Source: Lineus longissimus (Eukaryota; Nemertea; Pilidiophora; Heteronemertea; Lineidae). Taken from it: 64,000 nt of DNA. Made by a program: the position numbers and the translations under genes. The notes below the pieces were generated by a model, which saw nothing but the letters and a program-made list of their open reading frames with translations, was not told the origin of the DNA and searched no databases. Shown here in pieces: positions 2,013-48,107 of this stretch. The DNA lies in assembly GCF_910592395.1 (NCBI RefSeq), contig NC_088319.1:6696001-6760000 (forward strand), in the 5' to 3' direction. Position 1 is the stretch's first letter; every line of letters begins with the position of its first letter.

Positions 2013-2988
2013 TATTCTTTGTCCGTTTGTATTTGCGTTTCGGCCTCTTTATCTCCCACGTTTCTGTAGCTTTTTGTAATCCTAGTGGGATATGGTTTGC
2101 TGGTAATTGAACAGTGCTTTTTAGTGTCTTTTTCGACGGTGTTGCTCTTGGCGTAGTTTGTGAATCAGCTGAGGCTTCGCTCTCGCTGTCGTGCCCCCTC
2201 TTGCTAGTTGCAGTCGATATTGTCGACATCTTGTCTTCTTCTTTCTCTTTCTCTGCTTTGTTTGTTGTTTCCACATCTTGCAGCGTCACCTCCATTTGGG
2301 GATCGGCATCTGGTACTGGTGCGTTATCAGCTTTGTCGGCAGCGTTTCGTCCTTCTAGTACCAGTTGATTAACTTGCTCTCTGCGGTATGCTCGCTGCCT
2401 GCAGTCTTCTTCACGATGATTCGGATGAAGGCATTCCTCCCTGCACTCGAACCACATGTGATCATCTTGTTTGCATATGCCGCACATCTTCGGCTGATCT
2501 TTGTAAAAAGCTCTAAATGAGACCTGCTCACCGTTATTTTTTTCTGCCCAGCAGGTCCTTGGTATAGGGGTTTTCAGCTCAATTTCAATAATCCGTTTAG
2601 ATACATTGTACAGTTTCGTTCCATTAATAAGGGTAAAGCGGCATGGCGACGTTATCTTTCCATATTTCGCCAGTACATTATCGACATTTTCGTGCGCAAC
2701 TATTGGGGATATCCCCTCCAGCGTAATGAAAGTTGCCAATTTCTCTGGGTCCTTGGCTTGAAGTGAAACGTTTTTGTATTTAAACACTTTCTCCAGAATG
2801 TTCTCTTTCGACTCCTCAGATTTGCAGAAAATTTTAAAGGAAAAGCGTTGTTGCTCAATCCCAATAATATCCTCCGGAAAAGTGGCCTCGAGATCACCCG
2901 CAAAGTCCTCCAGAGTTGCCTTTTGAATAGCGGCCCTTGAAACCACGACCGCATACCGTTTAATTACATTGCTAGCCATTGTATACAC
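2013..2988 (-). pseudogene. LINE D1 ORF1, C-terminus replaced by pogo insertion
   Basis: The frame matches the 341-aa ORF1 of D2 with a handful of substitutions (for example NGTKL for KGTKL). A CCHC zinc knuckle lies at residues 169-182 (CGICKQDDHMWFEC), followed by a second Cys/His cluster CLHPNHREEDC at 186-196, then an acidic/Lys-rich tail. ORF1 proteins of APE-type LINEs bind the element RNA. The last 17 or so residues of the D2 protein are replaced by read-through into the pogo end, with a stop near 1996. It may still make a near-complete ORF1 protein. Confidence 0.85.
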
Positions 2989-3030
2989 TACACATGCAAG
3001 GAGGAGCGGAACAAAAACACGTCCGCTCAG
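2013..3030 (-). mobile_element. LINE family D, copy D1 (5' part only)
   Basis: The 5' end at 3030 joins U1 snRNA nt 39 exactly as in full-length D2, so this copy was inserted at the family D site in U1. The 5' UTR (2989-3030) begins CTGAGCGGACGTGTTTTTG. The element continues through most of ORF1 and is then cut by the pogo transposon at 2013. ORF2 and the 3' end must lie to the left of the window, if they survive. Confidence 0.88.
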
Positions 3031-3066
3031 CCTTATTGATCAACGTTAACTCCTGTGCCAGGTAAG
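3031..3066 (-). pseudogene. U1 snRNA fragment, nt 4-39, between LINE A1 and LINE D1
   Basis: On the minus strand this reads CTTACCTGGCACAGGAGT... through ...GATCAATAAGG, identical to nt 4-39 of the intact U1 genes. It abuts the poly-A tail of A1 on one side and the 5' end of D1 on the other. Both LINEs are therefore in the same U1 gene, whose promoter is at 20085. Confidence 0.93.
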
Positions 3067-3612
3067 TTTTTTTTTTTTTTTGAAAAATAATTTTATTCAC
3101 AGAATAAAATTGAAAACAATAAGTGCATCTCATATACAAGCAATATAACTCTGGCTACAAATACACCAGGGTTCCTACATAGTTCTTACATATTTCTATT
3201 TTTAAATAGTCAGTTCTAATAAATGACTATATCAAGTTCGCCATTTCACCCTTGCGGGGTACTTTGGTTTAATTATAAAAATCAGTTCAGTAAGTGACTA
3301 TATTCTCCCTTTTCGCCGTGAGGTTACTCAGGTTATTTCCGGAAGTAAAACAATCTATTATTTGGCTATCCCTATACATATGTTGGTTTATATTTAGTCG
3401 GCAGCCTGCCTTTGATGATTGGTATTTATCTTCCATTATTTTGGAAGATTAATTACGAAGCCAAATACATAGGCCTAAATGCTGAGCCTACTACTACATA
3501 TAATATACAGACAGGTTTATACGAAAATGTTAAGCATACACTTTTATCCCAAACTGTGTTCAAACAGGTGGAGTTATGAAATTCACTTAATGGTGAATTC
3601 GGTTTTGCCATT

Positions 3613-6168
3613 TTAATCCTTTTCCAGCCACTTAGGCTTTGTCAGTACATTTGTATAATACCATAGCCCGGACGAGGCAATGCTTTCAATCACAACCGAC
3701 TTCCCTTTGAGGCTTAAATTCCTCTGTTTCCATATGGTCAATACCGACCTTAATTTGTCAAGTTTTGCCCTCAAATTTGTTTCTTCCAAGGGGATATTTC
3801 CCAAATGTATACCGACAAGTTTTAGTGAATCCGATACCCATTTTATGCCTAAAGGCTGGTCCTGGCGATTTTTCCAGGCTCCAGCCCATAGACCTTCCGT
3901 TTTCTGTGCATTTAGCTTGGCCCCACTGGCCAGCTCATATTTTCGTATCACCTCAAAGGAATTTCTTATACCGTGGTTAGTGGTTATAAACAAGACGGTA
4001 TCATCAGCATATTGTTTTATACGTAGTTGTGTATCTGAGTCAGGGAAGGTAAATCCTTTGATATCAGCTTTCCTAATATTACAAGCCAAAATTTCTGCCG
4101 TTACAATGTATAATAATGCACTGAGCGGGCAGCCTTGCCTTAACCCTCTAGTGGGGAAAAGTTTGTCCGATGTGAAACCATTACATAATATACTACTAGA
4201 GATATTGTTATACAGGATTTTAATCCATTTTTTGAAGTTCGTACCGAATTGGAATTTCTCTAACACTCTGTGGACAAATGTCCATTCTACTCTGTCAAAA
4301 GCTTTTTCCTGGTCAAGCGCAATGAGGGCCAGTGGTATGTTTTCAGAATTAGAGTATTCAAGAATATCCCTAATCATGTGTATATTAGTTTCAATATATC
4401 GATCTTGTATGGCACATGTTTGATCCTCATTAATTATAATAGGTAAAACTTTGCCTAGCCTCTTGGCCAGAACCTTTGTGATTATCTTGTAATCAATATT
4501 GAGGAGGGTGATTGGCCTCCAATTTTTTAACTCGTCCCTGGGACCTTTCTTGTACAACAATGTAATTAAACCTTCCTTTTGAGAGCGGGACAAAGTACCC
4601 GTTTCAAAAACCGTTTGAACCATTTTGATGAAGTAAACCTCTAATTTACGCCAAAAGTGTTTATAAAACTCAGCCCCGAGTCCATCTGAACCAGGACTTT
4701 TATGATTGTCAAATGATTTAATTGCTTTGAGGATTTCCTCAGTTGAAAATTCATTGTCAATCGACTTGGCTTGCGTCTCATTTAGCTTCAACTCAACAGC
4801 GTCCAAGAAATCTACCATTACATTTTCATCAATGTTGCCTTTGCTGTACAGGTCAGAATAAAACTTCACCTGTTCTTTCATAATCTCCTGGGTTGTGTCA
4901 ACCACAGTACCGTCACCTTTTCTAACAGATCTAAACAATCTGTCTTGTCCCCTAGTTTTTTCCAGTTTGCAAAAATACCGACTGGAAGTTTCTCCCTCTT
5001 CATGCCATTGCGCTTTAGACCTTATTTTGGTGCCTTTCGCCTCCTGTAATTCAAGTTTCTTTAATTGGTCCCTGAGGTATTGAGCTTTCACCTCTTGTTT
5101 GTTATCAGTAGCTTTATTTAGGTCGTTCAATAATTTTCTCTTGTGCTTATGGAGTTTTTTACTAATTTTCTTGGAGAATGCTCTAGATTTTTCCTTGACT
5201 TGGGATTTGAAGTAATCCCACCTTTCTAGATAATTTTCAAATTTATGTGTTCCTGATACCAGAATTTCTGATATCAGGTCTTCAACTATTGTATTATATT
5301 CATCCTTCTCCAGGAGAGAAGTGTTTAATTTCCAAACTCCTGGACCTTTGAAAATGTTGGAATTCTCAATGCTCAAAGACACACAGTCATGATCACTATG
5401 CACGAAGGGCATAATTACAGTTTCATGTACATTATGATCTAAAATGTTACAGTAAAACCTATCGATTCTACTCCACTTTCCATTGTTATCTGACCATGTT
5501 CCTTGTAATCTATCAGGATTAGCCCGCCGCCAGTAATCGCTAAGATTAAACTGATTTTTTATCTCATCTAAAGTTATAACCCCCTCTGTGCCATAGGTTT
5601 GTGCTCCGTTTTTATCCAGCTTGACGTCTTCAACACAGTTGAAGTCTCCACCAAGAATTACATTATCATCAGCTGTAATCCACCCATTTTTTAGTTTTTC
5701 AAATAGTGGTTTCCTGTTTCTATTTGGAGCATAGACATTTAAAGCAGTGTATGTTTTTCCTTCCCATTCAAATTTTATTCGGACCATCCTCCCCTCGTTG
5801 TCTTTTTTAAAGGAATCTTTTACAATTTTCATTTTATTTGACACCAGAATGGCTACACCCCTGGCATGAGTTGTCCCATTAGACCAGAAAGATTCACTAC
5901 CCCATTCTCTTCCCCAAATCTTATTGTCATAATCAGTTTCGGCGTGGGTTTCCTGTAGGAACATAACGTCAAATTTGTTATCTTTTATCCAATTAAAAGT
6001 TGCCGATCTTTTATCTGAGTCAACACTCCTTAACCCAGCTGTGTTAAGAGTGCCAGTTTTAAATTTTGGGGTACTCATTGTGAGTAGAAATAGCAATATA
6101 AATAACAGTATCCTATACATTACTACAATGGAAAGTGAAGGAGATTTACAATACATTGATAAATACAT
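3613..6168 (-). CDS. LINE A1 ORF2: APE endonuclease + reverse transcriptase, C-terminally truncated
   Basis: The product is 851 aa against 1287 in A2. The APE endonuclease fills about residues 35-260: LNTAGL, FLQETHAE, ALNVYAPN, LGGDFNCV, RIDRFY and SDHDCVSL. The reverse transcriptase fills about residues 480-790, with NWRPITLLNIDYKIITK, GLRQGCPLSALLY and the catalytic YADD at 720-723. The internal deletion removes the C-terminal region with the Cys/His zinc-finger-like motif, and the frame stops shortly after LTKPKWLEKD. The start overlaps the ORF1 stop as TAATG. Catalytic residues are intact, but loss of the C-terminus probably impairs retrotransposition (inference). Confidence 0.93.
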   Translation of the reverse strand: MYLSMYCKSPSLSIVVMYRILLFILLFLLTMSTPKFKTGTLNTAGLRSVDSDKRSATFNWIKDNKFDVMFLQETHAETDYDNKIWGREWGSESFWSNGTTHARGVAILVSNKMKIVKDSFKKDNEGRMVRIKFEWEGKTYTALNVYAPNRNRKPLFEKLKNGWITADDNVILGGDFNCVEDVKLDKNGAQTYGTEGVITLDEIKNQFNLSDYWRRANPDRLQGTWSDNNGKWSRIDRFYCNILDHNVHETVIMPFVHSDHDCVSLSIENSNIFKGPGVWKLNTSLLEKDEYNTIVEDLISEILVSGTHKFENYLERWDYFKSQVKEKSRAFSKKISKKLHKHKRKLLNDLNKATDNKQEVKAQYLRDQLKKLELQEAKGTKIRSKAQWHEEGETSSRYFCKLEKTRGQDRLFRSVRKGDGTVVDTTQEIMKEQVKFYSDLYSKGNIDENVMVDFLDAVELKLNETQAKSIDNEFSTEEILKAIKSFDNHKSPGSDGLGAEFYKHFWRKLEVYFIKMVQTVFETGTLSRSQKEGLITLLYKKGPRDELKNWRPITLLNIDYKIITKVLAKRLGKVLPIIINEDQTCAIQDRYIETNIHMIRDILEYSNSENIPLALIALDQEKAFDRVEWTFVHRVLEKFQFGTNFKKWIKILYNNISSSILCNGFTSDKLFPTRGLRQGCPLSALLYIVTAEILACNIRKADIKGFTFPDSDTQLRIKQYADDTVLFITTNHGIRNSFEVIRKYELASGAKLNAQKTEGLWAGAWKNRQDQPLGIKWVSDSLKLVGIHLGNIPLEETNLRAKLDKLRSVLTIWKQRNLSLKGKSVVIESIASSGLWYYTNVLTKPKWLEKD

Positions 6169-6170
6169 TA
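6166..6170 (-). promoter_or_regulatory. TAATG stop-start overlap between ORF1 and ORF2 (family A)
   Basis: The ORF1 stop TAA and the ORF2 start ATG share the A. The same pentanucleotide is at 11726-11730, 24397-24401 and 27925-27929. UAAUG coupling (termination then re-initiation) has been shown for ORF2 translation of the silkworm LINE SART1. The same use here is inference. Confidence 0.7.
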
Positions 6171-7244
6171 CTTATAAGTTAGGAAGCCAAGCTTCTTCTG
6201 TGATTTCTTTTCTTCTTTCATCTTCTTCTTTTCCTCTTTCGTTGGTGTGGCATCCAGGGGTCTTTTAGATGGTCCACCAATTTGAAGTGATAAAGGTGAG
6301 TGCATGTAATGCAATGGCTGTTGCACTGGCTGAACGAGAGTCCCTATGCCCTGGGTCCCTATGTGCTGAGGCTGAGGCGGAGCAGCGTCTGCCTCCTCTT
6401 CCGCTTTCTTTTCATCGATAACCAGTCGCTCCCCCTCCTCGTCATCACTGTCCTCGATTTCACCTTCCTCCTGTTGTTGGCTTTCTTCCGATTTTTTATC
6501 TGGCTTGGCCCAGACTACCTTGTCAGGACATCGAGAGGACTTGTGGCCCTCTTTGCCACAGGTCCCGCACGGTGCCATACATTCTCTGGCCAAGTGCCCT
6601 TTCTCGTTGCAGTTTCTGCATCTCAACTCATTTTTACAGTTCTTTGCCAGGTGGCCCTTTTCTAAACACTTGTTACATTTGGCTTTCTCGCATTTCGCGG
6701 CTACGTGCCCGAAACCTTTGCAAATGTTGCAGCTTACAGGCTGCCCTGTGTAAATAACTTGGACATTTGCACCGTCTCCTCTCACCATGATGTAATTGGG
6801 AATGTGTTCCTTAATGAACATCCTGATCATCCTCGTTCCGGTCTTTATAGTGGGTGCCTGTTTGTAGACGTTTTCCTTTAGACCAACGACCTCGCCGTAT
6901 GTTTCAAGTGTTCTTATTAAGTCATTATTATCTCCTGATGCAGGGTAGTAGAGGATGCTGACCACCGTTGGTCGCCTTCTTTTCTCAACAAAAGGGAGTT
7001 GTTCTTCTTTTACCTTAACGTTTTTTTCCTTTAGCTTCTGGTATGACTCCTCATCATCCACAGTCACGTGCCACTCTCCATGGTGCATCTGCTGCACCCA
7101 TCCTATTTTGATTGACGTATCGCCTTTCGTTGCTCCCAAGATGATGTCCTGGGCCGTAACGTAATTTCCTTTAATCAATAGAGTTAAGTCCTCCTTGTGG
7201 TGAACCACCTTCCCCGCTTTAATCTTATCCGCATAAGAAGCCAT
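6168..7244 (-). CDS. LINE A1 ORF1: gag-like protein with four CCHC zinc knuckles
   Basis: The product is 358 aa and intact. Four consecutive CCHC knuckles occupy residues 172-185, 190-203, 209-222 and 226-239 (first: CNICKGFGHVAAKC). They are preceded by a domain of about 170 aa without an obvious motif and followed by an acidic stretch (EEGEIEDSDDEEGE) and a Lys-rich end. Zinc-knuckle ORF1 proteins bind element RNA and form the ribonucleoprotein with ORF2. Stop and ORF2 start overlap in TAATG at 6166-6170. The same protein is intact in A3 and A4 and interrupted in A2. Confidence 0.93.
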   Translation of the reverse strand: MASYADKIKAGKVVHHKEDLTLLIKGNYVTAQDIILGATKGDTSIKIGWVQQMHHGEWHVTVDDEESYQKLKEKNVKVKEEQLPFVEKRRRPTVVSILYYPASGDNNDLIRTLETYGEVVGLKENVYKQAPTIKTGTRMIRMFIKEHIPNYIMVRGDGANVQVIYTGQPVSCNICKGFGHVAAKCEKAKCNKCLEKGHLAKNCKNELRCRNCNEKGHLARECMAPCGTCGKEGHKSSRCPDKVVWAKPDKKSEESQQQEEGEIEDSDDEEGERLVIDEKKAEEEADAAPPQPQHIGTQGIGTLVQPVQQPLHYMHSPLSLQIGGPSKRPLDATPTKEEKKKMKEEKKSQKKLGFLTYK

Positions 7245-7331
7245 AATGAACGATCGAAAAACAAATCGGCTTGGCCTAATCTAGGTAGAGTTTACCCGCG
7301 CAGGAGCTCTGCGAAAACACGTCCGCTCGCT

Positions 7332-7349: not shown

Positions 7350-7371
7350 TTTTTTTTTTTTTTGAAAAATA

Positions 7372-7392
7372 ATTTTATTCACAGAATAAAAT
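7372..7392 (-). other. 3'-terminal hairpin with polyadenylation signal, family A
   Basis: ATTTTATTC-TGT-GAATAAAAT is a perfect 9-bp stem with a 3-nt loop, about 10 nt before the poly-A tail. It is present in A1 and A4 as well, and also in A3, which lost nearly all the rest of the 3' UTR. This makes it the likely minimal 3' signal read by the reverse transcriptase (inference). Confidence 0.65.
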
Positions 7393-7864
7393 TGAAAACA
7401 ATAAGTGCATCTCATATACAAGCAATATAACTCTGGCTACAAATACACCAGGGTTCCTACATAGTTCTTACATATTTCTATTTTTAAATAGTCAGTTCTA
7501 ATAAATGACTATATCAAGTTCGCCATTTCACCCTTGCGGGGTACTTTGGTTTAATTATAAAAATCAGTTCAGTAAGTGACTATATTCTCCCTTTTCGCCG
7601 TGAGGTTACTCAGGTTATTTCCGGAAGTAAAACAATCTATTATTTGGCTATCCCTATACATATGTTGGTTTATAATTAGTCGGCAGCCTGCCTTTGATGA
7701 TTGGTATTTATCTTCCATTATTTTGGAAGATTAATTACGAAGCCAAATACATAGGCCTAAATGCTGAGCCTACTACTACATATAATATACAGACAGGTTT
7801 ATACGAAAATGTTAAGCATACACTTTTATCCCAAACTGTGTTCAAACAGGTGGAGTTATGAAAT

Positions 7865-10800
7865 TCACTTAATGGTGAATTCGGTTTTGCCATTTTCAAC
7901 CTTGGCTATAGCATTATTAATGCACCATAACTTTCTATCAAACTTGTGTGAATACAATTGCCTTGCCATGTTGGCTTTAACTATTGAAACGAATTTCCCT
8001 TTCATATCTATTCTCTTATCATGGAACCTGATGTTATTTCGATATTGCCAAATCACGTATTTGGCTACCACTAATAAGTAATTCGCTAGCAGTATGTTCT
8101 TGTCACCATACCTCTGGTCGTGAATACCAAGTATTATAGTTTTTCTCATGAAAGGGATTTGAGGACATAGTAATTGCAAGAAAGTAAATACATACATTAA
8201 GAACCGGATTGAAACCTGGCACCTTGTAAAAAGGTGACATACACTTTCCTTTTTTTGTCGACATATTGAACATAGTGGGTCGTTAGTGACTCCAATTTTT
8301 TGTAACCTTTTGCCTGTCGGCAAAATCTCATGAATGATTTTGTAGCTGACATCACTGATCTGCCGATCGTGAATTTTGTGCCTCAAGTTGGCATACACCC
8401 TTTCCCAGTAGTTTTCTGGGAAGATTTCACCAAGTTTGGCCTGCCATGCTTCGTGTGCCCTGGGCTTGTTGTTGTTAAACTTAATATACCGTACTTCTTT
8501 GAATTGTTTACTCTGAAGTTTTTGGATCGTTATGAATTCCTTTTTGTTTCCGGACTCGTCCATAATTCCCAGCTCTGGTTTATTATCTTGTATGTTACCA
8601 ATCTTGCTTGGATCTCTTAGATCAGGAAATGCATTCAAGATTGTATTTCTTAGCTCAAGGCTTCGGGCATGATAACCTCGACGCCAAGCTGGCGGCCTAT
8701 CTAAAGCCTCTCCTACTCTGGTGTAATTATTTACCGTAGTGAATTGGTTTGGCCTTAATGGATTACCATTGTTGTTTAACAATTCCGTATTTGAAAGTAA
8801 ATGTTCACTTCTTATCTTCTGGTGATTATCCAATTTTCTACACCCGCCTGATCTTGTCCATGACTGGACTAGTTCAAGGTAAAATTTCGGTAGAGCCTTC
8901 AAACTATCCACACGTAAATTTGTGTGAAAAACCTCAAGACCTAACCTCGTGTTTGTACCTTTCAACATTACTTTGTTGAACCAATGTTTGGGCAAAAGTG
9001 TCCATTTCTCATTACTTCTGACTAGTTTCTTAAGTAACATTATCCTCTGTGTCTCGATCTTGAAGTCAAGATCGACAATGTTTTGACCTCCTTTACTAAC
9101 CGGTAATTGTGCAGACTTGTCCTTCATGGGCCTGCCCTTGCCTGACCACAAGAAGTCAAAAATAATTGTTTTGAAATCCTTTTCCAGCCACTTAGGCTTT
9201 GTCAGTACATTTGTATAATACCATAGCCCGGACGAGGCAATGCTTTCAATCACAACCGACTTCCCTTTGAGGCTTAAATTCCTCTGTTTCCATATGGTCA
9301 ATACCGACCTTAATTTGTCAAGTTTTGCCCTCAAATTTGTTTCTTCCAAGGGGATATTTCCCAAATGTATACCGACAAGTTTTAGTGAATCCGATACCCA
9401 TTTTATGCCTAAAGGCTGGTCCTGGCGATTTTTCCAGGCTCCAGCCCATAGACCTTCCGTTTTCTGTGCATTTAGCTTGGCCCCACTGGCCAGCTCATAT
9501 TTTCGTATCACCTCAAAGGAATTTCTTATACCGTGGTTAGTGGTTATAAACAAGACGGTATCATCCGCATATTGTTTTATACGTAGTTGTGTATCTGAGT
9601 CAGGGAAGGTAAATCCTTTGATATCAGCTTTCCTAATATTACAAGCCAAAATTTCTGCCGTTACAATGTATAATAATGCACTGAGCGGGCAGCCTTGCCT
9701 TAACCCTCTAGTGGGGAAAAGTTTGTCCGATGTGAAACCATTACATAATATACTACTAGAGATATTGTTATACAGGATTTTAATCCATTTTTTGAAGTTC
9801 GTACCGAATTGGAATTTCTCTAACACTCTGTGGACAAATGTCCATTCTACTCTGTCAAAAGCTTTTTCCTGGTCAAGCGCAATGAGGGCCAGTGGTATGT
9901 TTTCAGAATTAGAGTATTCAAGAATATCCCTAATCATGTGTATATTAGTTTCAATATATCGATCTTGTATGGCACATGTTTGATCCTCATTAATTATAAT
10001 AGGTAAAACTTTGCCTAGCCTCTTGGCCAGAACCTTTGTGATTATCTTGTAATCAATATTGAGGAGGGTGATTGGCCTCCAATTTTTTAACTCGTCCCTG
10101 GGACCTTTCTTGTACAACAATGTAATTAAACCTTCCTTTTGAGAGCGGGACAAAGTACCCGTTTCAAAAACCGTTTGAACCATTTTGATGAAATAAACCT
10201 CTAATTTACGCCAAAAGTGTTTATAAAACTCAGCCCCGAGTCCATCTGAACCAGGACTTTTATGATTGTCAAATGATTTAATTGCTTTGAGGATTTCCTC
10301 AGTTGAAAATTCATTGTCAATCGACTTGGCTTGCGTCTCATTTAGCTTCAACTCAACAGCGTCCAAGAAATCTACCATTACATTTTCATCAATGTTGCCT
10401 TTGCTGTACAGGTCAGAATAAAACTTCACCTGTTCTTTCATAATCTCCTGGGTTGTGTCAACCACAGTACCGTCACCTTTTCTAACAGATCTAAACAATC
10501 TGTCTTGTCCCCTAGTTTTTTCTAGTTTGCAAAAATACCGACTGGAAGTTTCTCCCTCTTCATGCCATTGCGCTTTAGACCTTATTTTGGTGCCTTTCGC
10601 CTCCTGTAATTCAAGTTTCTTTAATTGGTCCCTGAGGTATTGAGCTTTCACCTCTTGTTTGTTATCAGTAGCTTTATTTAGGTCGTTCAATAATTTTCTC
10701 TTGTGCTTATGGAGTTTTTTACTAATTTTCTTGGAGAATGCTCTAGATTTTTCCTTGACTTGGGATTTGAAGTAATCCCACCTTTCTAGATAATTTTCAA

Positions 10801-11728: not shown

Positions 11729-12578
11729 TACTTATAAGTTAGGAAGCCAAGCTTCTTCTGTGATTTCTTTTCTTCTTTCATCTTCTTCTTTTCCTCTTTC
11801 GTTGGTGTGGCATCCAGGGGTCTTTTAGATGGTCCACCAATTTGAAGTGATAAAGGTGAGTGCATGTAATGCAATGGCTGTTGCACTGGCTGAACGAGAG
11901 TCCCTATGCCCTGGGTCCCTATGTGCTGAGGCTGAGGCGGAGCAGCGTCTGCCTCCTCTTCCGCTTTCTTTTCATCGATAACCAGTCGCTCCCCCTCCTC
12001 GTCATCACTGTCCTCGATTTCACCTTCCTCCTGTTGTTGGCTTTCTTCCGATTTTTTATCTGGCTTGGCCCAGACTACCTTGTCAGGACATCGAGAGGAC
12101 TTGTGGCCCTCTTTGCCACAGGTCCCGCACGGTGCCATACATTCTCTGGCCAAGTGCCCTTTCTCGTTGCAGTTTCTGCATCTCAACTCATTTTTACAGT
12201 TCTTTGCCAGGTGGCCCTTTTCTAAACACTTGTTACATTTGGCTTTCTCGCATTTCGCGGCTACGTGCCCGAAACCTTTGCAAATGTTGCAGCTTACAGG
12301 CTGCCCTGTGTAAATAACTTGGACATTTGCACCGTCTCCTCTCACCATGATGTAATTGGGAATGTGTTCCTTAATGAACATCCTGATCATCCTCGTTCCG
12401 GTCTTTATAGTGGGTGCCTGTTTGTAGACGTTTTCCTTTAGACCAACGACCTCGCCGTATGTTTCAAGTGTTCTTATTAAGTCATTATTATCTCCTGATG
12501 CAGGGTAGTAGAGGATGCTGACCACCGTTGGTCGCCTTCTTTTCTCAACAAAAGGGAGTTGTTCTTCTTTTACCTTAA

Positions 12579-15013: not shown

Positions 15014-15059
15014 TGAATTTTTAAAATCGTATACCATTCCCACATTGTGGGGAATCCCC

Positions 15060-35957: not shown

Positions 35958-36627
35958 TTTTTTTTTTGAGCTTGAACCCGCAGTGGGTGTCATTTATTGT
36001 CATATATCCTATACAAATCACATACACAATAACATGGTTCTGCATTTTCCTATACAATACACCAATTACACCAATCTCCCTACTACAATATATAACTAAC
36101 ACAATCACTGTGACATCGTCCGGTGCCGTCCCGTCGCCGGTGTTGACAGCTTATGAGCGAGACCGCACTCGGCGCCGCGACGGCACGTCGATCCCACAGC
36201 CGAGTGTGTTTACACAATATGAATAAAACACCAATGTTACATGTGAGCTTAGTTAAAGTAAGTGTTTAAAACTGTGGGAGCACCATTGTTGACTAGCGTT
36301 TTCTATTATATCAATATATAAACATGTTCTTTTTTTGATATAGCACCAATGGATAATTGTGTACAACTAACGTAAAATAAAATGTGATTCATAATAAATA
36401 TGAGTGTTTAATTCTCGTGAAAGCACCATTGCCGACTAATTTTCTCTTTAATGTCGATAAATATGTTATTTTTGATCTAGCACCAATGGATAATAATTGT
36501 ATAAAGTAAACAGTGAATAAATGTGCTTTAGTTTCTAAGTTACTCCAATATTAAATAAATTAACAATATAATAGTATAAAACAATGTGCTTCCAAGTGCT
36601 CAATGGCCGCTATTTACAATTATGTTT

Positions 36628-36689
36628 GCCCAGTTCAGGGGTCGATCCCAACTCATTGTCTCATTTTGACCCCTGATGGTGCACTGAGC
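36628..36689 (-). other. conserved 3' UTR hairpin, LINE C
   Basis: Stems GCTCAGT/ACTGGGC (one G-U pair) and CAGGGGTC/GACCCCTG correspond to those of B1 while the loop sequence has changed. Confidence 0.65.
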
Positions 36690-36889
36690 TAATGTATGTT
36701 GCCAATAATTTCTATATTTATAAAACTTATTATCTGTGTGGTGCTCATTCAAAATTTACATCTATTTACAAACATTTCTCTCGCTATTTACAGTACTGTG
36801 TGAGATGTTTAACCCAGTCAAAACAAAAGAAATGTAAATGAAAAATAAAAAGATAAAAAGGAAAAAGACAAATAAATAAACATGCGCCC

Positions 36890-36950
36890 AGTGGCGGAAT
36901 CGAACCTGGGTCTTCTAGTTTGCAAGCCCCGACAATCCGCTTGAGCCACT
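36890..36950 (-). other. tRNA-like segment in LINE C 3' UTR
   Basis: The minus strand has an A-box-like TGGCTCAAGCGGA and B box GGTTCGATTCC. The flanks AGTGG and CCACT could pair. The position after ORF2 matches the tRNA-like segment of B although the sequence differs a good deal. Confidence 0.55.
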
Positions 36951-37035
36951 TTGATTACATGCTACCTGCTCGTTTATTTTAACAGAAGTTCAGATTATAG
37001 TGAAGTGGGGAATCCCCATATTTGTGACCTTGACC

Positions 37036-40000: not shown

Positions 40001-40404
40001 AAGATTATGGCCTTATCATGATTTTTAGGATTCTGTGTGGGCATGTATACAGAAAGTACATGTGTGCCAGACATCAATTTCACATGGCATACCCTCCCCT
40101 GTAAACCCCCTGGAACTACGAACTCCCTCTCCACAGCTGCCCTGGTTATAATAGCTGTGCCGGCGTGAGCCTGGCCACTGCTGTAGAAATAAAGTCCATA
40201 GTTCCGATTAACCCATGGTCCCAAATTGTCCGGCACCACATGCACTTCCTGTAAACATGCCACATCACACTTGAGTCTTACAATTTTGTTTAAAACACTT
40301 ATTCTCTTTTCATACAAACCATTCACATTCATTGTTATTACATTAGATGCCATGATTAATATACTGATGAGGGTGAAAAGGTGATTCATAGACTTAATAT
40401 GCAT
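37036..40404 (-). CDS. LINE C ORF2: APE endonuclease/reverse transcriptase
   Basis: The product is 1122 aa and open throughout. Endonuclease motifs are TMNVNGLYEKR, LQEVHVV, YMPTQN, LGGDFNFAS, RLDRIFTN and TDHYGV. The reverse transcriptase has NYRPVSLLTVDYKIITK, VRQGCSLSPLLF and FADD. The C-terminal motif is CARCYPSQTETIKHAFYEC. Best alignment in the window is with B1 ORF2. The first ATG (40404) is 13 bases after the ORF1 stop, across an A-run; a second ATG at residue 6 aligns with the B1 start. A short hydrophobic run (LFTLISILIMA) precedes the endonuclease, as in A and B. Confidence 0.94.
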   Translation of the reverse strand: MHIKSMNHLFTLISILIMASNVITMNVNGLYEKRISVLNKIVRLKCDVACLQEVHVVPDNLGPWVNRNYGLYFYSSGQAHAGTAIITRAAVEREFVVPGGLQGRVCHVKLMSGTHVLSVYMPTQNPKNHDKAIIFCQSFKEYVRKLRGENLILGGDFNFASSREDRGTGTLFPGDILYKRLWQEIMDLLNIKDSYRELNPTTKSYTYHRGNVRSRLDRIFTNCIVKKMDHVALVFTDHYGVWGAVETIGKRKMGKGFWKLNNSLLRDEGTEREVTQFWRGWQKRKGDFECPIDWWEKGKQKLQGIFKKNGKRVNRERGARIWELEKELDNLGKERDRGVDNRERWEEIREELNNLEMRDLEGAKVRAGARFIEEREAPTTEFFKVEVRSKTVINQLKNSEDVVLEKQEDILNEVKKFYEELYRKKETDKVYKDRFAAKIVKKLTGEQQNTLEGLITTGEVQRELKNMKVGKSPGIDGLGKEFYVYYWDILGDDLVETINNVFLREKLGGTMKTAVISILFKKGDPRDIKNYRPVSLLTVDYKIITKVLKSRLSGVMSDLVHPDQACGIPKRSINDQLFNIQTIIEHASDSGGALVAVDLRKAFDLVSHEWLFQCLETMRFGHNFMRWMRVLYDAPESRVLVNGFLSESFRVGRSVRQGCSLSPLLFVLCQEPLACAIRSDERVRGIRLPNVKQQVKNIAFADDATHPIATPCIRALFSVYNDFGQASGSDINIAKTEILLLGGFSRQNIPIEYRQYIVKISNILGIPWTKAGPCGETYWKKIGEKMGKTVKLWENRRLSFVGKVLVVKTVLVSKLWYGARVMKLPKKYCIKFVKTIFKFLWSNKMELIKRSTMVQSFGDGGVGMPHVASKCRALFMERLKQLYKVQEGGVAQPWIGYGIYKVGITLRHHCPEIAKNTYMHRVIGTHGVWEEILYQCKAAKLKMGRSQWVNITAASLYGEIMKSGPNIPHTVCTKIFNVNWSRIWNNVWNNNILYNNEKELYYKLVHRALPVKAMFKGLPNIQRNCARCYPSQTETIKHAFYECVTIQPVLNSLINLFRRKNWPDINFERIICPEFANCKGKDKIVGALGIYIHVIWGGRASIWRGNQDNSLNEFEKRIQNRL

Positions 40405-40420
40405 TTTTTTTTTTTTTTTA
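40405..40420 (-). other. A-run between ORF1 stop and ORF2 start of LINE C
   Basis: The ORF1 stop TAA is followed by an uninterrupted A-tract of about 13 nt and then ATG of ORF2. B1 has TAATTTAATG at this place, so the tract has expanded in C. It may affect ORF2 re-initiation (inference). Confidence 0.7.
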
Positions 40421-41713
40421 ATATTTGAAAGGCTTCGCAGATGTAACCCGACTCTTACCTGGCGAGGTACGCCTTGTTCTTGATGGCACTCCCAAGTTGG
40501 GCTTTTTGTTGTTTTGTTTGTTTTGGGCCTTGTTCGTTAAGTCCTCTGGGCTTTTTTCAACCCTATCATTTCCCCTCTTGACAGTGCCAACAAGCCGCTC
40601 GGCATCCCCGTCAGGAGTCGTCGGCCTACTACCTGCGAAACCTTTCAAAATTACATTGACATTAGTTGGAGAGTCTAGGTCTATACTTAACGGCTTGGAA
40701 AGGTCTCTCAGCTCATCATCCGTACTCTCCTCTACACTGTCCTTTGCTTCTTTTAGCCGGTTTGCCACCTCTGTGGGCGTGTCCCAAACTGACTGTTCCC
40801 CTCTCCTCCTAGCCTTCACTACACCTCGCCATTCTCCATCTCTAGCTGCCTCCTTCCCTGTTTCGTCACTATTCTCTTTCTCGCCATCCTCGACACTCTC
40901 TCCCATCTCCTCACACCTGCCCGCTGCACTACTCTCGCTCTCTTCGCCTAACTCCTTCTCACCATCTTCGACCTTCTCTCCCTGCTCAACTCTCTGCACT
41001 ACACTTCGTACTCTTCCTTCCGCGTCATCTTCCTTCTCATTCTCCTTTTCGTCTGCTCTATCCCCCAACTGCTCTGTACATTCATATCGATAATGCCCTT
41101 TTCTCCGGCAGCGAAAGCACGTGGCGTCTCCCCTCAGTTCGTCTTCTTGGCCTCTATACCAAGTCCGGAATCTGTTGCCCTTTACATAAATTACTTTTGG
41201 GACTTTAGCCCCCACATTCATGACAACTGTCACCGTGCCACTCTCTACCGTGTTATACTCCCTCAACATCTCTCTCTTTGCTGCTTTCACTAAGCCATAC
41301 TTTTGTAATGTCTCTCTTATCCATCCAATGTCACACTCTCCCGGGTAATTGTGCACCTTTACGTACCTGCTCGTGTGGAATCTTTTGATTTCAAAGTCAG
41401 CTGCTTTTTCGAGCCAAAATCCTACCCCGTTAATGTCCAAAACCGCTGGGACCTCATCCATTTGCGGGTCCCCCTTTTGGAACCTGACACTAAAATGTCC
41501 TTGACCCACTTTTAAAACTGTTTTAATACTTCCTATGGGGATCCCATTCTCAATTAAAGCCTTCACAATCATATATTGTTTTATATCTCCATCATCATGG
41601 TTCGTTCTATAATCTACTGAAACCAAGCTTCGTTTAATAATATCAACCACCTCTGCCTCATAGGGCCCATCCTGTTGCTGCTGGGCCACGGCGCCGGCAT
41701 ACGACGACGCCAT
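40418..41713 (-). CDS. LINE C ORF1: zinc-knuckle RNA-binding protein
   Basis: The product is 431 aa, the same length as B1 ORF1. The CCHC knuckle is CFRCRRKGHYRYEC near residue 197-210. The N-terminal domain is well conserved with B1, while the charged C-terminal half varies and ends SRVTSAKPFKY. Intact. Confidence 0.92.
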   Translation of the reverse strand: MASSYAGAVAQQQQDGPYEAEVVDIIKRSLVSVDYRTNHDDGDIKQYMIVKALIENGIPIGSIKTVLKVGQGHFSVRFQKGDPQMDEVPAVLDINGVGFWLEKAADFEIKRFHTSRYVKVHNYPGECDIGWIRETLQKYGLVKAAKREMLREYNTVESGTVTVVMNVGAKVPKVIYVKGNRFRTWYRGQEDELRGDATCFRCRRKGHYRYECTEQLGDRADEKENEKEDDAEGRVRSVVQRVEQGEKVEDGEKELGEESESSAAGRCEEMGESVEDGEKENSDETGKEAARDGEWRGVVKARRRGEQSVWDTPTEVANRLKEAKDSVEESTDDELRDLSKPLSIDLDSPTNVNVILKGFAGSRPTTPDGDAERLVGTVKRGNDRVEKSPEDLTNKAQNKQNNKKPNLGVPSRTRRTSPGKSRVTSAKPFKY

Positions 41714-41934
41714 GGCTTAAGGCTAAAATCTATGTACAGTGTAGTGTATATGTAAGGGTGCGGTCGAGGTAAAAGCAAAGTAAACAAGTGCGGTCAACAC
41801 AAAGGATCGAACACAAAGGAATCCCACAACGAATAAGGACGAAATTCCACGAAATCTAATGAATAAAATGAATATTGCACGTACTGCTCCCCGGTCCTTC
41901 TGAAATTTACGATATTGTAGCAAAGATGAAAAAT

Positions 41935-41974
41935 GATACTGATACTTTTATCTTAGCCAACGGGCCGAGAAGCG
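41935..41974 (-). other. U2 snRNA-like 5' head of LINE C
   Basis: The minus strand reads CGCTTCTCGGCCCGTTGGCT followed by AAGATAAAAGTATCAGTATC. It matches U2 from nt 3 (CGCTTCTCGGCC) to about nt 28, then drifts. It is the extreme 5' end of C, next to the TSD. It is more diverged from U2 than the B1 head. Confidence 0.82.
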
Positions 41975-41978
41975 GGTA

Positions 41979-42030
41979 CCTGGGAGAACGTCCTTATTGA
42001 TCAACGTTAACTCCTGTGCCAGGTAAGTAT
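41979..42030 (-). pseudogene. U1 snRNA nt 1-52 upstream of LINE C
   Basis: Complete stem-loop I and promoter, joined to the U2-like head of C. A transcript from here would start as U1 and continue as U2-like sequence. Confidence 0.93.
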
Positions 42031-42601
42031 GCTTGATTTTCGCCACACGCGACCGTAAACATCACGGTAAATTCATCCCTCACGTGGTTTTCGAACTCGA
42101 AAGGACACAGTTTGGTTGGCAACTTCAACGTCGAATGGAACGACACACAGGAGGAGGCCTATACGCAGAGGCAAAGCTCGAGACAGCCTATGTATTCTCA
42201 TGGAGGCCTTCACCGACCAATGCATGTGCTTGAATATAAGATTTCGGACACGTTATTTTCATTCATACTCGCTTGAACAGCTTCGTCGCATTACAGACGT
42301 GGTTGCGTGGTTGGGGCGCCCATCACACGACGAGTTCACGCGCACGTTCAATTGCTGCACGCGTACCAGCATTTATACCTCCCGACAATTGGCCCTTGTG
42401 ATAACCCAAGGGTGTTTTCCTAGAGGGAGCAAAGAGGGTCTCTTCTTTCTTTTAGTTTGTAAGGGGATAGCGCGTACGCAGTCCCCCACTACCATAAATG
42501 CTGCACCCGAGTCACCCACATTTGGGGTGATCGCAAGGGTCAGCCCAACCGAAGTGCAATGGAAAGGCCTCGCCCTGGGAGAACGTCCTTATTGATCAAC
42601 G
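42031..42601 (-). repeat. U1 snRNA tandem array, block 5 (one spacer, broken gene)
   Basis: The spacer with promoter belongs to the C-disrupted gene. U1 nt 25-164 (42462-42601) belongs to the gene split by LINE D2. Confidence 0.94.
42462..42601 (-). pseudogene. U1 snRNA nt 25-164, severed by LINE D2
   Basis: Body after the D2 poly-A tail. Start with nt 1-39 at 48069-48107. Confidence 0.93.
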
Positions 42602-43023
42602 TTTTTTTTTTTTTTTTTTATCTTTTATTGTAACAACATGTAAAAGTAACAATGATAATGAGCTAGCTATCCCTTACAAAGCTCAGGGAGTGGTCTACAT
42701 CTCTTAGCAATCTAGGCGGCGCAAATCGGCCTGCGGAGGTTTTACAGTTTGTTCTGCCTAACGAGCTGTAGTTGAAAAGAAACACTTGACATTATTTTTA
42801 CAGGTGATGCAGTTCTGTGATGGCTTGCTTGCTGGCCATATTGTTGTGCTGGAAGAGGGGATGGTTAGGCATTCATTGTACAAACAGTGGCTTAGAAATT
42901 CTTTTATTGTGCTGAATAGTTATTTCAGGAGTGATTTTGGTGGAGGAAGTCGTGGTAACACTTAAGTTAAACGTGTTGTTGTTAATGAATGAATGTCGCC
43001 AGAGTTAATAGGCTTATATACAG

Positions 43024-46000
43024 TTAGATGAAGTTTCTTCTGAGTTCAAAGGTATCCGTGTTACACAGGATGTTATTGCAACACCAGTCGGTTTGGAAGA
43101 CTAGACTTTGTGTCGGGGAACTTCCGGCTTTGGTCAATTCTTGTTTTAATCTGCTGATTACGTTTGCTTTGAATATTTGTACTAAGTTTGCCTTGGGTTT
43201 ATCTGGTTCAGTGAGAATAATATTTCGGTTTCTCCATAGTATGTGTTTTGCAAGAAAGATGAGGAAATTTGAAAGTTGTAGGTTTGGTTTGTCTGCCGCG
43301 ATGGTGTTTTGAAATGAGATTCCGAAACAGATTTTATGCAAGTCTAACCTGCAGGGTTTGCCTAGAATCTGTTCGATTAAAGGGTTTATGCGCCCCCATA
43401 GGTTGAAAGCAACTGGGCAGTCTGTGAATATGTGCAAATTAGTTTCTTCTATATTAGTTGCACATGTTTCGCATGTGTCGTTTTCTGTCATTCCCCACTT
43501 TTTAAGTTTATCCTTGGTCGCAAGCGTCAAGTGGGAGAACCTCCATTGTAATTCTCTAGTTTTGTTGGCACTTAAGGGGTTTTGTGCATTAAGCCAATTA
43601 ATTTTCCAGTTGATTTCATCATTTATGATTTCTTGAAATGTTTGGTACGACTTGGGTGTGAAATCTCGTGTTGTTTCACTGATCAAGTGGTTGTAAATAT
43701 CTGTTGATTTGAGTTTGTTGATGGATTTTTTGTTTAGATTAATACTAAAATTTTGCGCTCCCTTTGTTTCGCTTGCTGTTATGAGTTTGATTTTCCATTC
43801 TCTAGGGATTTTAGAGTACAGATTTTCAAGTTTTTCTTCTCCATTTGGGATGTGTTTTATCTTGTCATTTTCCTCAAACTCTATGCGTTCGCCATTACAG
43901 AATATGTCTTTGACTTGTACCACATTAGCCTTTATAAACTGTTTTTCCGTGAGGTTCAGCTGGGTCTTTAGTTCCGTGTTATTGAAGAGGTTTTGGTGTA
44001 GCAGGTCACGGGCATTCCTGTATTTTGGCAGCTTAAAGCTTCTGTGTATTTGTTCCCAGTAACCTAAGGTTTGATTGAGGAATTTGCTTCCTGTTGTTTT
44101 GGCTTTGAAGTTCTTTTCCAGTAGAATATTGTCTTTGTTGTGGGCCCCGTATTGTGTTTGGAGTCTTTGATCGATGAAGCATTTCCATGCATAATTGTGG
44201 TTGTCCAGGTATCTCAGGATATGTTTAACTCTTTGGGTTTTTATTTTGTTTGTTATGTTAGTGAGATTTATACCTCCTTCGTTGAGAGGTTTATATAGAA
44301 TATCTTTTTTCACCCAGTGCTTCCGGTTTTTCCAAATGAAGTTTTCGAAAGATGTCTGGATTTTGTTAATGTATTTGTCCGGCATTGGGTAGACCGCTGA
44401 TAGGTACCAGATCTGTGAGGTTAAAAAGGTGTTGATGACTGTTGTTTTCCCCGTTATAGAAAGGTCCCTTTGTTTCCAAAGGTTCAGGATTCGCTGAATT
44501 TTTAGAATTTTGGGGGCCCAATTGTCTTCATCGTACCTTGTATTTCCGAAGAACATGCCGTATATTTTTATCTTGTCATTCTTCCAAGTTAAATTCATTG
44601 GCTTGTTCATGTTATTTTTGAAGGAGCCTATCCAGAGGCCTTCCGTTTTTTCTTTGTTTACTTTGGAACCGCTGGCCTGTTCGTATGTTTCTAGTACATC
44701 AAAGACGTGGGGTAGTGATTCAATTGTTGAAAGTGTTAATGTGTTATCGTCTGCATACTGTTTTATTTTGCTTGTTTTTTGGTTTGGTAGTTTTATGCCT
44801 TTGATGTTTTTATTTTTTCGTATTGTTTCTGCCAGTGTTTCCGCCACTAGTATATACAGCAGGGCAGATAAGCAACACCCCTGTCTGACTCCTTGTTCTA
44901 GTTTAAAGGCGCCTGATAGCCAGCCGTTGTTTTTTATGTGTGATTTTATGTCCGTGTAAAATAGTGTAACCCAGTTGATGAAATCTTCTCGAAAGTTGAA
45001 GGTTTGAAGTGTCTTGTACAGATAGTCCCACGAGACTTTATCAAAGGCCTTCATTTGGTCAAGGCACAACAAAAAGCCAGGTTTATTAGTTTGATTAACG
45101 TATTCAATAAGGTCTCTCGTGAAATGCGCATTATCGTGTATTTGTCGACCTTCTATGCCACATGTTTGGTCACTGTGTATGATATGAGGAAGGACTTTCT
45201 TTAATCTGTTTGCTAGACATTTTGTGATGATTTTATAATCAATACAGAGTAGTGAAATGGGTCGCCAGTTTTTTAACAGAGTTTTGTCTCCTTTTTTATA
45301 GAGGAGGGTTATGACTCCTGTTCGCATTGTATTTGATAAGAGTTTATTTTCAAAGCAATAGTTTGCCACTTCTAAGAGGTCTGGCCCAAAGAGATCCCAA
45401 AATGTTCGGTAAAACTCAATTGGAAGCCCATCTACTCCCGGGGATTTCCCAAGTTGGAAGCTTTTTTGTGAGATTGTTAGTTCTTTCAGAGTAAGTTTTC
45501 CCTCACAGGATTTACTTTGTGGTTCAGTTAGTTTTTTGTCTATGTTTTTGAGAATCTTTGTTTGTGCTTTGGGAGATGTTGGTGTTCTTTTGTATAATTC
45601 GGTATAAAAGCGAATTTGTTCTTTCGAGATTTCCTCTTGTGAGGTCACTCTTTTCCCTTCCGGGGTAGTGAGTTCATCGATTACTTTCTTTTCAGCATTT
45701 AATGTTTCCAAATTAGCGAAAAACTTCGTACATTTTTCCCCTTCCTCACGCCATTGTATTTTGCTTCTGATTTTGATTCCTTCAAGCTTTTTCTCTTCTA
45801 TTGATTTAATTAATTCTTTTACCTGGGTGTATCTGTTTATGTGATATTCTGATTGATTTTCTGCCAAAGGCGTTATTTGTTCAAGTTCTTTAAGGAGTTT
45901 TTCTTTAAGTCTGTTTTCGTTTTTCCGTTTTTCTTTTGAGTATTGTATTGAGAGGTATTTTATCTTATTTTTACCAATGTCCCACCATTTTGCAAGGTCA

Positions 46001-46878
46001 TCATATTCATGCCTCTTGGATTGCCATGATGCCCAGAGAGTATTTACTTTTTCTCGATATAGTGAGCTTTTTAGTATTTCTGTATTTAGATGCCACGTGT
46101 TTGGTCCTCTTGGCCTTGTGGCGGGTGTTTTCAGTTGTAAGCTGGCTAAGTTATGATCTGATAATGGATATGGTTCGATTTTAACGTTTACACAAGAATG
46201 GATTAAATTTTCTGAAACATAGATTCTATCAATACGTGAGCTAGTGTCAAAGTTTTTGGAGTGTCTTGAGAAGACTTTTAAATTTGGGAATTGATACCTT
46301 AAGATGTCAGTCAAGTTTAGATCAGATGTTAGTTTTTGAATCTCATTTTTACCAATTAGACATTTTTTATTCTGCGAGAGACCGAGTCTGTCTAGTTCAA
46401 AGTTTTCAATGCAATTGAAATCACCGCCTAAGATGAATTCAGTGGGTAGGTTACCAGTATTCTCAGCGTTTGTAGGTTTTAGTGTGAAGTTTTTGATACT
46501 ACTTAGGAAGCGTTGGCGTTCGGCCGGAATATTTGGTGCGTAAATATTTATCACATTTATAAATTTGTCTACAAGTTTATAAAGTACACTAAGGATTCGG
46601 CCATTTTTGTCTCTTTTCATTTTCGTTACATGTAGATTTTCACTTGAGATAGTGGCCACACCATGTTTTCGGTTGTCTTCTGGTATGTTTGATGTGAGAA
46701 TTTGTTTATTTTTTAGGTGTTTTAGAAGGCCCATAGCTTCTTCATGGGTTTTAAAATGGGTTTCCTGTAAAAGAGTGATGGTAAATTTATTGGTAATTTC
46801 AGAGAGGGTATTCCGTTTTGTGTCTGATGACACTAGACCGTCTACATTTAACGACACAACGCTTAGATCGTACTCCAT
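43024..46878 (-). CDS. LINE D2 ORF2: APE endonuclease/reverse transcriptase
   Basis: The product is 1284 aa. The endonuclease starts at the N-terminus without the hydrophobic leader of A-C: VVSLNVDGLV, LLQETHFKT, VINIYAPN, LGGDFNCIE, SRIDRIYVS and LSDHNLASL. The reverse transcriptase has NWRPISLLCIDYKIITK, LDQMKAFDKV, GVRQGCCLSALLY and YADD. The C-terminal Cys/His motif is CETCATNIEETNLHIFTDC. It is closer in motif wording to A than to B/C. Intact, so D2 may be active. Confidence 0.95.
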   Translation of the reverse strand: MEYDLSVVSLNVDGLVSSDTKRNTLSEITNKFTITLLQETHFKTHEEAMGLLKHLKNKQILTSNIPEDNRKHGVATISSENLHVTKMKRDKNGRILSVLYKLVDKFINVINIYAPNIPAERQRFLSSIKNFTLKPTNAENTGNLPTEFILGGDFNCIENFELDRLGLSQNKKCLIGKNEIQKLTSDLNLTDILRYQFPNLKVFSRHSKNFDTSSRIDRIYVSENLIHSCVNVKIEPYPLSDHNLASLQLKTPATRPRGPNTWHLNTEILKSSLYREKVNTLWASWQSKRHEYDDLAKWWDIGKNKIKYLSIQYSKEKRKNENRLKEKLLKELEQITPLAENQSEYHINRYTQVKELIKSIEEKKLEGIKIRSKIQWREEGEKCTKFFANLETLNAEKKVIDELTTPEGKRVTSQEEISKEQIRFYTELYKRTPTSPKAQTKILKNIDKKLTEPQSKSCEGKLTLKELTISQKSFQLGKSPGVDGLPIEFYRTFWDLFGPDLLEVANYCFENKLLSNTMRTGVITLLYKKGDKTLLKNWRPISLLCIDYKIITKCLANRLKKVLPHIIHSDQTCGIEGRQIHDNAHFTRDLIEYVNQTNKPGFLLCLDQMKAFDKVSWDYLYKTLQTFNFREDFINWVTLFYTDIKSHIKNNGWLSGAFKLEQGVRQGCCLSALLYILVAETLAETIRKNKNIKGIKLPNQKTSKIKQYADDNTLTLSTIESLPHVFDVLETYEQASGSKVNKEKTEGLWIGSFKNNMNKPMNLTWKNDKIKIYGMFFGNTRYDEDNWAPKILKIQRILNLWKQRDLSITGKTTVINTFLTSQIWYLSAVYPMPDKYINKIQTSFENFIWKNRKHWVKKDILYKPLNEGGINLTNITNKIKTQRVKHILRYLDNHNYAWKCFIDQRLQTQYGAHNKDNILLEKNFKAKTTGSKFLNQTLGYWEQIHRSFKLPKYRNARDLLHQNLFNNTELKTQLNLTEKQFIKANVVQVKDIFCNGERIEFEENDKIKHIPNGEEKLENLYSKIPREWKIKLITASETKGAQNFSINLNKKSINKLKSTDIYNHLISETTRDFTPKSYQTFQEIINDEINWKINWLNAQNPLSANKTRELQWRFSHLTLATKDKLKKWGMTENDTCETCATNIEETNLHIFTDCPVAFNLWGRINPLIEQILGKPCRLDLHKICFGISFQNTIAADKPNLQLSNFLIFLAKHILWRNRNIILTEPDKPKANLVQIFKANVISRLKQELTKAGSSPTQSLVFQTDWCCNNILCNTDTFELRRNFI

Positions 46879-47000
46879 TTTAAATGATAAAACAACCTAC
46901 ACCAAGTAATATCCTATGCTTATGAATACGGGTTTGGATCTCATTTGCCAATTCAGTCAGGATTTTTATGTCGATCACATTTTTATGTTGAAAGTCACGT

Positions 47001-48026
47001 TTATTCTGTTTTGTAGCCATTACCGTCCTCCTTTGAAATGGTGTCAGGGTTATTCTTTGTCCGTTTGTTTTTGCGTTTCGGCCTCTTTATCTCCCACGTT
47101 TCTGTAGCTTTTTGTAATCCTAGTGGGATATGGTTTGCTGGTAATTGAACAGTGCTTTTTAGTGTCTTTTTCGACGGTGTTGCTTTTGGCGTAGTTTGTG
47201 AATCAGCTGAGGCTTCGCTCTCGCTGTCGCGCCCCCTCTTGCTAGTTGCAGTCGATATTGTCGACATCTTGTCTTCTTCTTTCTCTTTCTCTGCTTTGTT
47301 TGTTGTTTCCACATCCTGCAGCGTCACCTCCATTTGGGGATCGGCATCTGGTACTGGTGCGTTATCAGCTTTGTCGGCAGCGTTTCGTCCTTCTAGTACC
47401 AGTTGATTAACTTGCTCTCTGCGGTATGCTCGCTGCCTGCAGTCTTCTTCACGATGATTCGGATGAAGGCATTCCTCCCTGCACTCGAACCACATGTGAT
47501 CATCTTGTTTGCATATGCCGCACATCTTCGGCTGATCTTTGTAAAAAGCTCTGAATGAGACCTGCTCACCGTTATTTTTTTCTGCCCAGCAGGTCCTTGG
47601 TATGGGGGTTTTCAGCTCAATTTCAATAATCCGTTTAGATACATTGTACAGTTTCGTTCCTTTAATCAGGGTAAAGCGGCATGGCGACGTTATCTTTCCA
47701 TATTTCGCCAGTACATTATCGACATTTTCGTGCGCAACTATTGGGGATATCCCCTCCAGCGTAATGAAAGTTGCCAATTTCTCTGGGTCCTTGGCTTGAA
47801 GTGAAACGTTTTTGTATTTAAACACTTTCTCCAGAATGTTCTCTTTCGACTCCTCAGATTTGCAGAAAATTTTAAAGGAAAAGCGTTGTTGCTCAATCCC
47901 AATAATATCCTCCGGAAAAGTGGCCTCGAGATCACCCGCAAAGTCCTCCAGAGTTGCCTTTTGAATAGCGGCCCTTGAAACCACGACCGCATACCGTTTA
48001 ATTACATTGCTAGCCATTGTATACAC
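47001..48026 (-). CDS. LINE D2 ORF1: RNA-binding protein with CCHC knuckle
   Basis: The product is 341 aa. A CCHC knuckle lies at 169-182 (CGICKQDDHMWFEC) and a neighbouring Cys/His cluster at 186-196. A Glu/Lys-rich tail ends NPDTISKEDGNGYKTE. The gap of 122 nt to ORF2 means family D does not use the stop-start overlap seen in A. Confidence 0.92.
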   Translation of the reverse strand: MYTMASNVIKRYAVVVSRAAIQKATLEDFAGDLEATFPEDIIGIEQQRFSFKIFCKSEESKENILEKVFKYKNVSLQAKDPEKLATFITLEGISPIVAHENVDNVLAKYGKITSPCRFTLIKGTKLYNVSKRIIEIELKTPIPRTCWAEKNNGEQVSFRAFYKDQPKMCGICKQDDHMWFECREECLHPNHREEDCRQRAYRREQVNQLVLEGRNAADKADNAPVPDADPQMEVTLQDVETTNKAEKEKEEDKMSTISTATSKRGRDSESEASADSQTTPKATPSKKTLKSTVQLPANHIPLGLQKATETWEIKRPKRKNKRTKNNPDTISKEDGNGYKTE

Positions 48027-48068
48027 TACACATGCAAGGAGGAGCGGAACAAAAACACGTCCGCTCAG

Positions 48069-48107
48069 CCTTATTGATCAACGTTAACTCCTGTGCCAGG
48101 TAAGTAT
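48069..48107 (-). pseudogene. U1 snRNA nt 1-39 upstream of LINE D2
   Basis: Promoter plus the 5' splice-site-pairing end and most of stem-loop I, joined to D2. Confidence 0.93.

Follow-up and report, generated by a model that had tools for sequence, protein, structure and literature searches.

Retrotransposons of snRNA genes

Keno is a Tx1-type LINE located in U2 genes. Sharing of a multicopy RNA gene by different site-specific LINEs, whose transcription is linked to that gene, is exemplified by the R1/R2-type LINEs of rDNA and by SLACS/CZAR, which occupy other genes and belong to other clades than the elements analyzed here; off-target leader scars that record origin are not known for either group. 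The elements of snRNA genes reported by 2015 were only Keno, Utopia, Dada-U1, and Dada-U6 (PMC4640811). Utopia, as described in the same source, resembles the elements reported below in that it targets U2 genes and several of its families may share one array, but it has a restriction-like endonuclease, and its families use a common site rather than different sites in one gene. Dada-U1 also targets U1 genes (PMC3706591, PMC8869645) but is a DNA transposon that generates a 6-7 bp duplication and recognizes another U1 sequence, GCGAAT (PMC3706591). The open-licence literature, as far as its text was accessible, yielded neither a U1-specific LINE nor snRNA leader scars on LINEs, which is weak evidence of absence.

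We analyzed a window of 64,000 nt (the whole stretch, C12:6696001-6760000) from Lineus longissimus and searched the 391-Mb assembly, which consists of 30 contigs. The window contains a tandem array of U1 genes and LINEs that we assigned to families A, B, C, and D. Unlike Keno, families A, D, and C reside in U1.

LINE insertions in the U1 array

20065..54761, minus strand: tandem U1 snRNA gene array of 595-bp units, broken up by LINEs

Exact 165-nt U1 genes, one per 595-bp unit on the minus strand, number 22 in the window, and 6 more U1 genes are interrupted by LINEs. The LINEs in the array are poly(A)-tailed, lie in the U1 orientation, and are flanked by target duplications. In U1 numbering, the longest left/right duplications comprise nt 3-21 for three A copies (A1, A3, and A4), nt 23-39 for D2, nt 33-50 for B2, and nt 36-52 for C, with the ends of these intervals including A's that are indistinguishable from the poly(A) tail. 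A preliminary description of this DNA gave shorter duplications (nt 4-21, 25-39, 35-50, and 38-52), which differ from those measured here only by the ambiguous A's. Every junction that it listed is present in the sequence, and all the listed copies are in the U1 orientation; likewise confirmed are the common 5' junction of D1 and D2 (U1 nt 3-39 left of D1) and the tandem pair A1-A2, which is real because only U1 nt 3-21 separates the two copies.

Under uniform insertion, the probability that only five independent insertions all fall within nt 1-52 of the 595-bp unit is 5.1e-6. Thus, the clustering in U1 nt 1-52 exceeds chance, and array duplication may be behind some of the copies. Identical units are hard to assemble, and their number may be wrong, but it is extremely improbable that the junctions are assembly artefacts of the repeat array, given that they carry target duplications and poly(A) tails and that the D site recurs on another contig.

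Families A and D

The following copies of family A were identified in the window:

7351..20064, minus strand: LINE A1, divided by B1 and by an insert between TTAA sites; open ORF2 (7865-11731) and interrupted ORF1; duplication of U1 nt 3-21 at 20065-20083 and 7332-7350
3068..7331, minus strand: LINE A2, in tandem behind A1; a 1.3-kb deletion shortens ORF2; ORF1 (6168-7280) open
26772..29090, minus strand: LINE A3, with an internal deletion; duplication of U1 nt 3-21 at 29091-29109 and 26753-26771
23059..25562, minus strand: LINE A4, with an internal deletion; duplication of U1 nt 3-21 at 25563-25581 and 23040-23058

A 300-base probe from the 3' end of A (5 candidates scored) had four matches in the genome, all of which are in this U1 array and share one U1 site, so that family A looks U1-directed genome-wide. 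The 5' ends of A1 to A4 are identical, and the copies differ in their internal deletions and in poly(A) length; all being in one array, the four may partly be duplicates. Splicing was considered as the origin of the internal deletions in A2 to A4 and rejected, the breakpoints not being GT-AG. The insert of about 1 kb in A1 (12579-13551) has TTAA on either side, as in piggyBac-type transposons.

Family D is represented in the window by three copies:

42604..48068, minus strand: LINE D2, full length; ORF1 (47001-48077) and ORF2 (43024-46896) frames open; duplication of U1 nt 23-39 at 48069-48085 and 42587-42603
1..3030, minus strand: LINE D1, 5' part, behind A2 and preceded by U1 nt 3-39 (3031-3067); interrupted at about 2012; runs on left of the window
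55211..64000, minus strand: LINE D3, an older copy at the array edge, split by a DNA transposon (56121-61567); U1-like 3' flank of only 11 nt, AACGTTGATCA

Seven matches to the D probe were found genome-wide, of which four (D1, D2, D4, and D5) lie exactly at U1 nt 23-39 and one (D3) partially matches the site. D1, D2, and D4 belong to this U1 array, D4 being in tandem behind D1 across U1 nt 23-39. D5, a full-length copy on contig C16 in which both long frames are open, occupies a U1 gene that stands alone. Both copies of its duplication read AACGTTGATCACTAAGG and contain a SNP private to that U1 gene; because the SNP is present in both, D5 is an independent insertion at the D site. The two other matches are older copies, D6 (94%, 3' end missing) and D7 (77%); in neither did the 301 bases read contain a U1 10-mer. 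With four of the seven matches at the site, family D may be U1-directed genome-wide. As in family A, the 5' ends are identical across the copies, here D1, D2, D4, and D5.

The 5' ends of A and D have GAGCGGACGTGTTTT in common (15/15; from 29090 downward in A3 and from 48068 downward in D2), despite an ORF2 identity of 36%. When these 5' ends were compared with U1, the likeness was at the level of shuffled sequences, and Rfam gave no hit above the gathering score.

The 3' flank of D3 was also considered as a decayed U1 gene and rejected, its score being reached by 468 of 500 shuffles. The DNA transposon in D3 has long terminal inverted repeats, internal inverted repeats, and an 11-12 bp duplication, and the insert in D1 (3-2012) contains a DDE_1 transposase frame.

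Family B and the U2 genes

Two copies of family B are present in the window, one of them with a U2 leader:

29675..31779, minus strand: LINE B2, 5'-truncated; duplication of U1 nt 33-50 at 31780-31797 and 29657-29674
13856..20036, minus strand: LINE B1, nested in A1; open ORF1 (18415-19713) and open ORF2 (15060-18554); duplication of A nt 14-28 (15 nt)
19994..20036, minus strand: U2 leader of B1, corresponding to host U2 nt 9-51; the exact match extends over nt 7-51, of which nt 7-8 also belong to the A target

B1 and D3 are absent from the list in the preliminary description; the target of B1 is element A (A nt 14-28) and not U1. Genome-wide, the C 3' probe gave at least 40 matches (40 of 46 candidates scored), 30 of which were made into loci; of the ten matches outside the loci read, six fall within the span of the U2 array on contig C7, and the other four are on contig C6. 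By their 3' flanks, the 30 loci are 25 of B type, two close C copies (L052 and L053), and three distant relatives (L054-L056). Among the 25 B-type loci, 20 join U2 at nt 37, one is in U1 (B2), one in A (B1), and three in other sequence. These last three, on contig C14 (L057, L058, and L059), have a common non-U2 3' flank; a short stretch resembling U2 nt 6-26 follows about 60 nt downstream. Judged by these sequences, family B is a U2-gene family (U2 36/37..51), since most of the loci read join U2, that now and then inserts in U1 and elsewhere; with a single locus at the U1 site, it is not U1-specific.

Like Keno, family B is an AP-endonuclease LINE, and the two occupy nearly coincident positions in U2. 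According to PMC6136364, the Keno target begins with TCTGTTC, whereas the 3' flank of B begins with (A)GTATCTGTTC, 3 nt upstream of the TCTGTTCTTATC of Keno, and the Keno-type flank start is not found in B.

The U2 array on contig C7, which is partly masked in the fetched loci, comprises 46 or more U2 genes that reach the full score. B starts after U2 nt 51 in two truncated forms (14 and 7 loci) and one full-length form (L076), with another joint in L072. Three 5' structures and A-runs that range from 8 to 30 argue for several insertion events among the U2-resident B copies, many of which are plainly array duplicates. Extending the latter view, most copies in all families could be array duplicates of very few insertions, with site specificity overstated. 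The single truncation point common to many U2-resident B copies (14 loci with the same joint) and the confinement of all A copies to one array would fit, but D5 is independent, the A copies are unlike in internal deletions and poly(A) length, and the U2-resident B copies vary as described, so that we consider this explanation quite unlikely.

B1 opens with host U2 nt 7-51, which is free of mismatches and ends at nt 51, the start point of the full-length B in a U2 gene (L076). With this exact leader, B1 appears to derive from the RNA of a B element resident in U2.

A poly(A)-ended sequence that belongs to none of the four families precedes U2 nt 37-193 in another locus on contig C7 (L018, positions 1-419) and is perhaps another U2-directed element.

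Family C and a probable change of target

35960..41978, minus strand: full-length LINE C, with open ORF1 (40418-41716) and open ORF2 (37036-40536); duplication of U1 nt 36-52 at 41979-41995 and 35943-35959
41935..41974, minus strand: U2-like head of C, aligned with host U2 nt 3-41 and identical to it in 35 of 40 columns

The score of the C head against the human U2 sequence was reached by none of 1,000 shuffles. Of the two close C copies, that of the window is in U1, and the other, 96% identical, is at a non-U1 site on contig C5; the three distant relatives are located at other sites. The contig C5 copy begins in L054, and its 3' end lies about 6 kb away in L053; the sequence read covers the two ends, on either side of a middle of about 3.5 kb, and their spacing suggests one element. 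The C start of this copy coincides with that of the window copy and directly follows an exact U1 nt 1-52, which is preceded by sequence other than the U1 spacer. Compared with the neighboring intact repeats, about 11 nt of the target are missing, and 5 extra bases precede U1 nt 1. The order outward from the element is the old U2 head and then a U1 leader that ends at C's own U1 cut. The 5' ends of both C copies are identical.

C is probably the sister of B, and the C lineage probably changed its target, leaving U2 genes for U1 genes. The combination of a decayed U2 head with location in U1 (36..52) suggests that C records this change; its apparent link to U1 consists of one U1 copy and one leader.

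Alternatively, both types of head might have arisen when the reverse transcriptase switched its template to U1 or U2 RNA, without transcription from an snRNA gene. LINE-snRNA chimeras of such origin are known, as for L1 chimeras, and the heads begin at or near snRNA nt 1. Template switching does not predict, though, that the leader of B1 ends at U2 nt 51 and that of the contig C5 copy at U1 nt 52, which are the elements' own cut positions, and we regard it as very unlikely.

In L053 and L054 (C5:18700053-18709969), the C copy and a distant relative end nearly at one place in a 641-bp tandem repeat. Near another distant relative, on contig C12, a histone 3' stem-loop was detected (L055, 823-868; 36.9 bits).

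A proposed model of snRNA-gene transcription and leader-aided integration

The reading that we favor, and consider likely, is that L1-like AP-endonuclease LINEs use target-primed reverse transcription to integrate at fixed positions within snRNA genes, A and D being U1 families, B a U2 family, and C a family that moved from U2 to U1, with transcription presumably from the snRNA promoter. An element in sense within an snRNA gene would be transcribed from this promoter, and because of that, the element RNA would start at snRNA nt 1 and carry a leader. The endonuclease would nick the bottom strand at a fixed site; the cuts would be around the boundaries between U1 nt 2 and 3 and between nt 21 and 22 for A, and between nt 22 and 23 and between nt 39 and 40 for D. 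In A, D, B2, and C, if the ambiguous A's are part of the target, the nick would leave a 3' T able to pair with the poly(A) tail; the B1 site does not fit this pattern.

The copied leader could then pair with the upstream flank of the target, yielding an exact 5' join. On target, the leader would coincide with the upstream flank and hence be traceless; off target, it would persist as a scar from which the source gene can be read. Such pairing fits the 5' ends, which are identical among A1 to A4, among D1, D2, D4, and D5, and between the two C copies. The leader would not always secure a complete 5' end, B2 being 5'-truncated, and since most of the U2-resident B copies read are truncated as well, its pairing would not be the whole story. 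Off the expected sites are D3, D6, and D7, which lie outside recognizable U1, and three of the 25 B loci.

For the fuller proposal, we would put the chances as about even: snRNA-gene LINEs would borrow both the snRNA promoter and a leader, the leader would aid integration by flank pairing or else persist as a scar, and the contig C5 copy, in which U1 nt 1-52, the old U2 head, and the element are stacked, would preserve the history of a target switch from U2 to U1. U1-fixed LINE families would add a niche. Leader scars would matter more, making site-specific LINE transcription and target change testable from genome sequence.

Relationships among the four families

In all four families, the full ORF2 contains the Pfam domains Exo_endo_phos and RVT_1, that is, an AP-type endonuclease and a reverse transcriptase. 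ORF2 identity is 80% between B and C, 36% between A and D, and 29-32% between A or D and B or C. The best solved relatives of the two queries searched are LINE-1 ORF2 proteins (240.7 bits for C ORF2 and 489.2 bits for the A-family profile), with R2 scoring far lower (59.6 and 102.7 bits, respectively).

Phylogenetic trees were built from 109 of the 211 proteins found, together with the four ORF2s of the window, and also from 45 and 26 of the 211, the other proteins being unnamed. In the two larger trees, B groups with C and, apart from them, A with D; the A-D grouping has support of 95, 85, and 92 in the 109-, 45-, and 26-protein trees, respectively. A single clade of A, B, C, D, and their five nearest relatives was rejected (p 2e-6; AU test, 30-row set, simple model), whereas a tree in which A, D, and their relatives were held together was not (p 0.35).

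Three diverged LINE lineages (ORF2 identity of 29-36% between them) do occupy different fixed U1 positions, as had been proposed for this window. The further proposal that each of the three is specialized on its own U1 position, so that together they share out one U1 stem-loop, agrees with the separate site of each lineage in the window and with the rejection of a single clade of the U1 lineages and their five nearest relatives. It conflicts with the prevalence of U2 among the B-type loci and with the other close C copy being outside U1, and we deem it unlikely. Genome-wide tabulation of the flanks placed in U1 all four A matches, 4/7 of D, 1/2 of C, and 1/25 of B. Partitioning of U1 thus agrees with A and D and fails for B, with 20/25 loci in U2, while C was found once in U1 and probably came from U2; accordingly, U1 is a niche for two families and, in addition, for one lineage with a U2 history. 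A, D, B, and C also provide related nucleases whose sites are separated by a few bases to tens of bases, a set suited to studying how such enzymes read DNA.

Four scans of a viral contig collection confirmed no relatives. In a genome-contig collection, one locus with 27% identity was found in a bacterial bin and set aside as a probable contaminant.

None of families A, B, C, and D was detected in a second U1 cluster (L012, C11:18654001-18661000), in which three U1 genes at 98% are interspersed with, and flanked by, diverged U1 copies.
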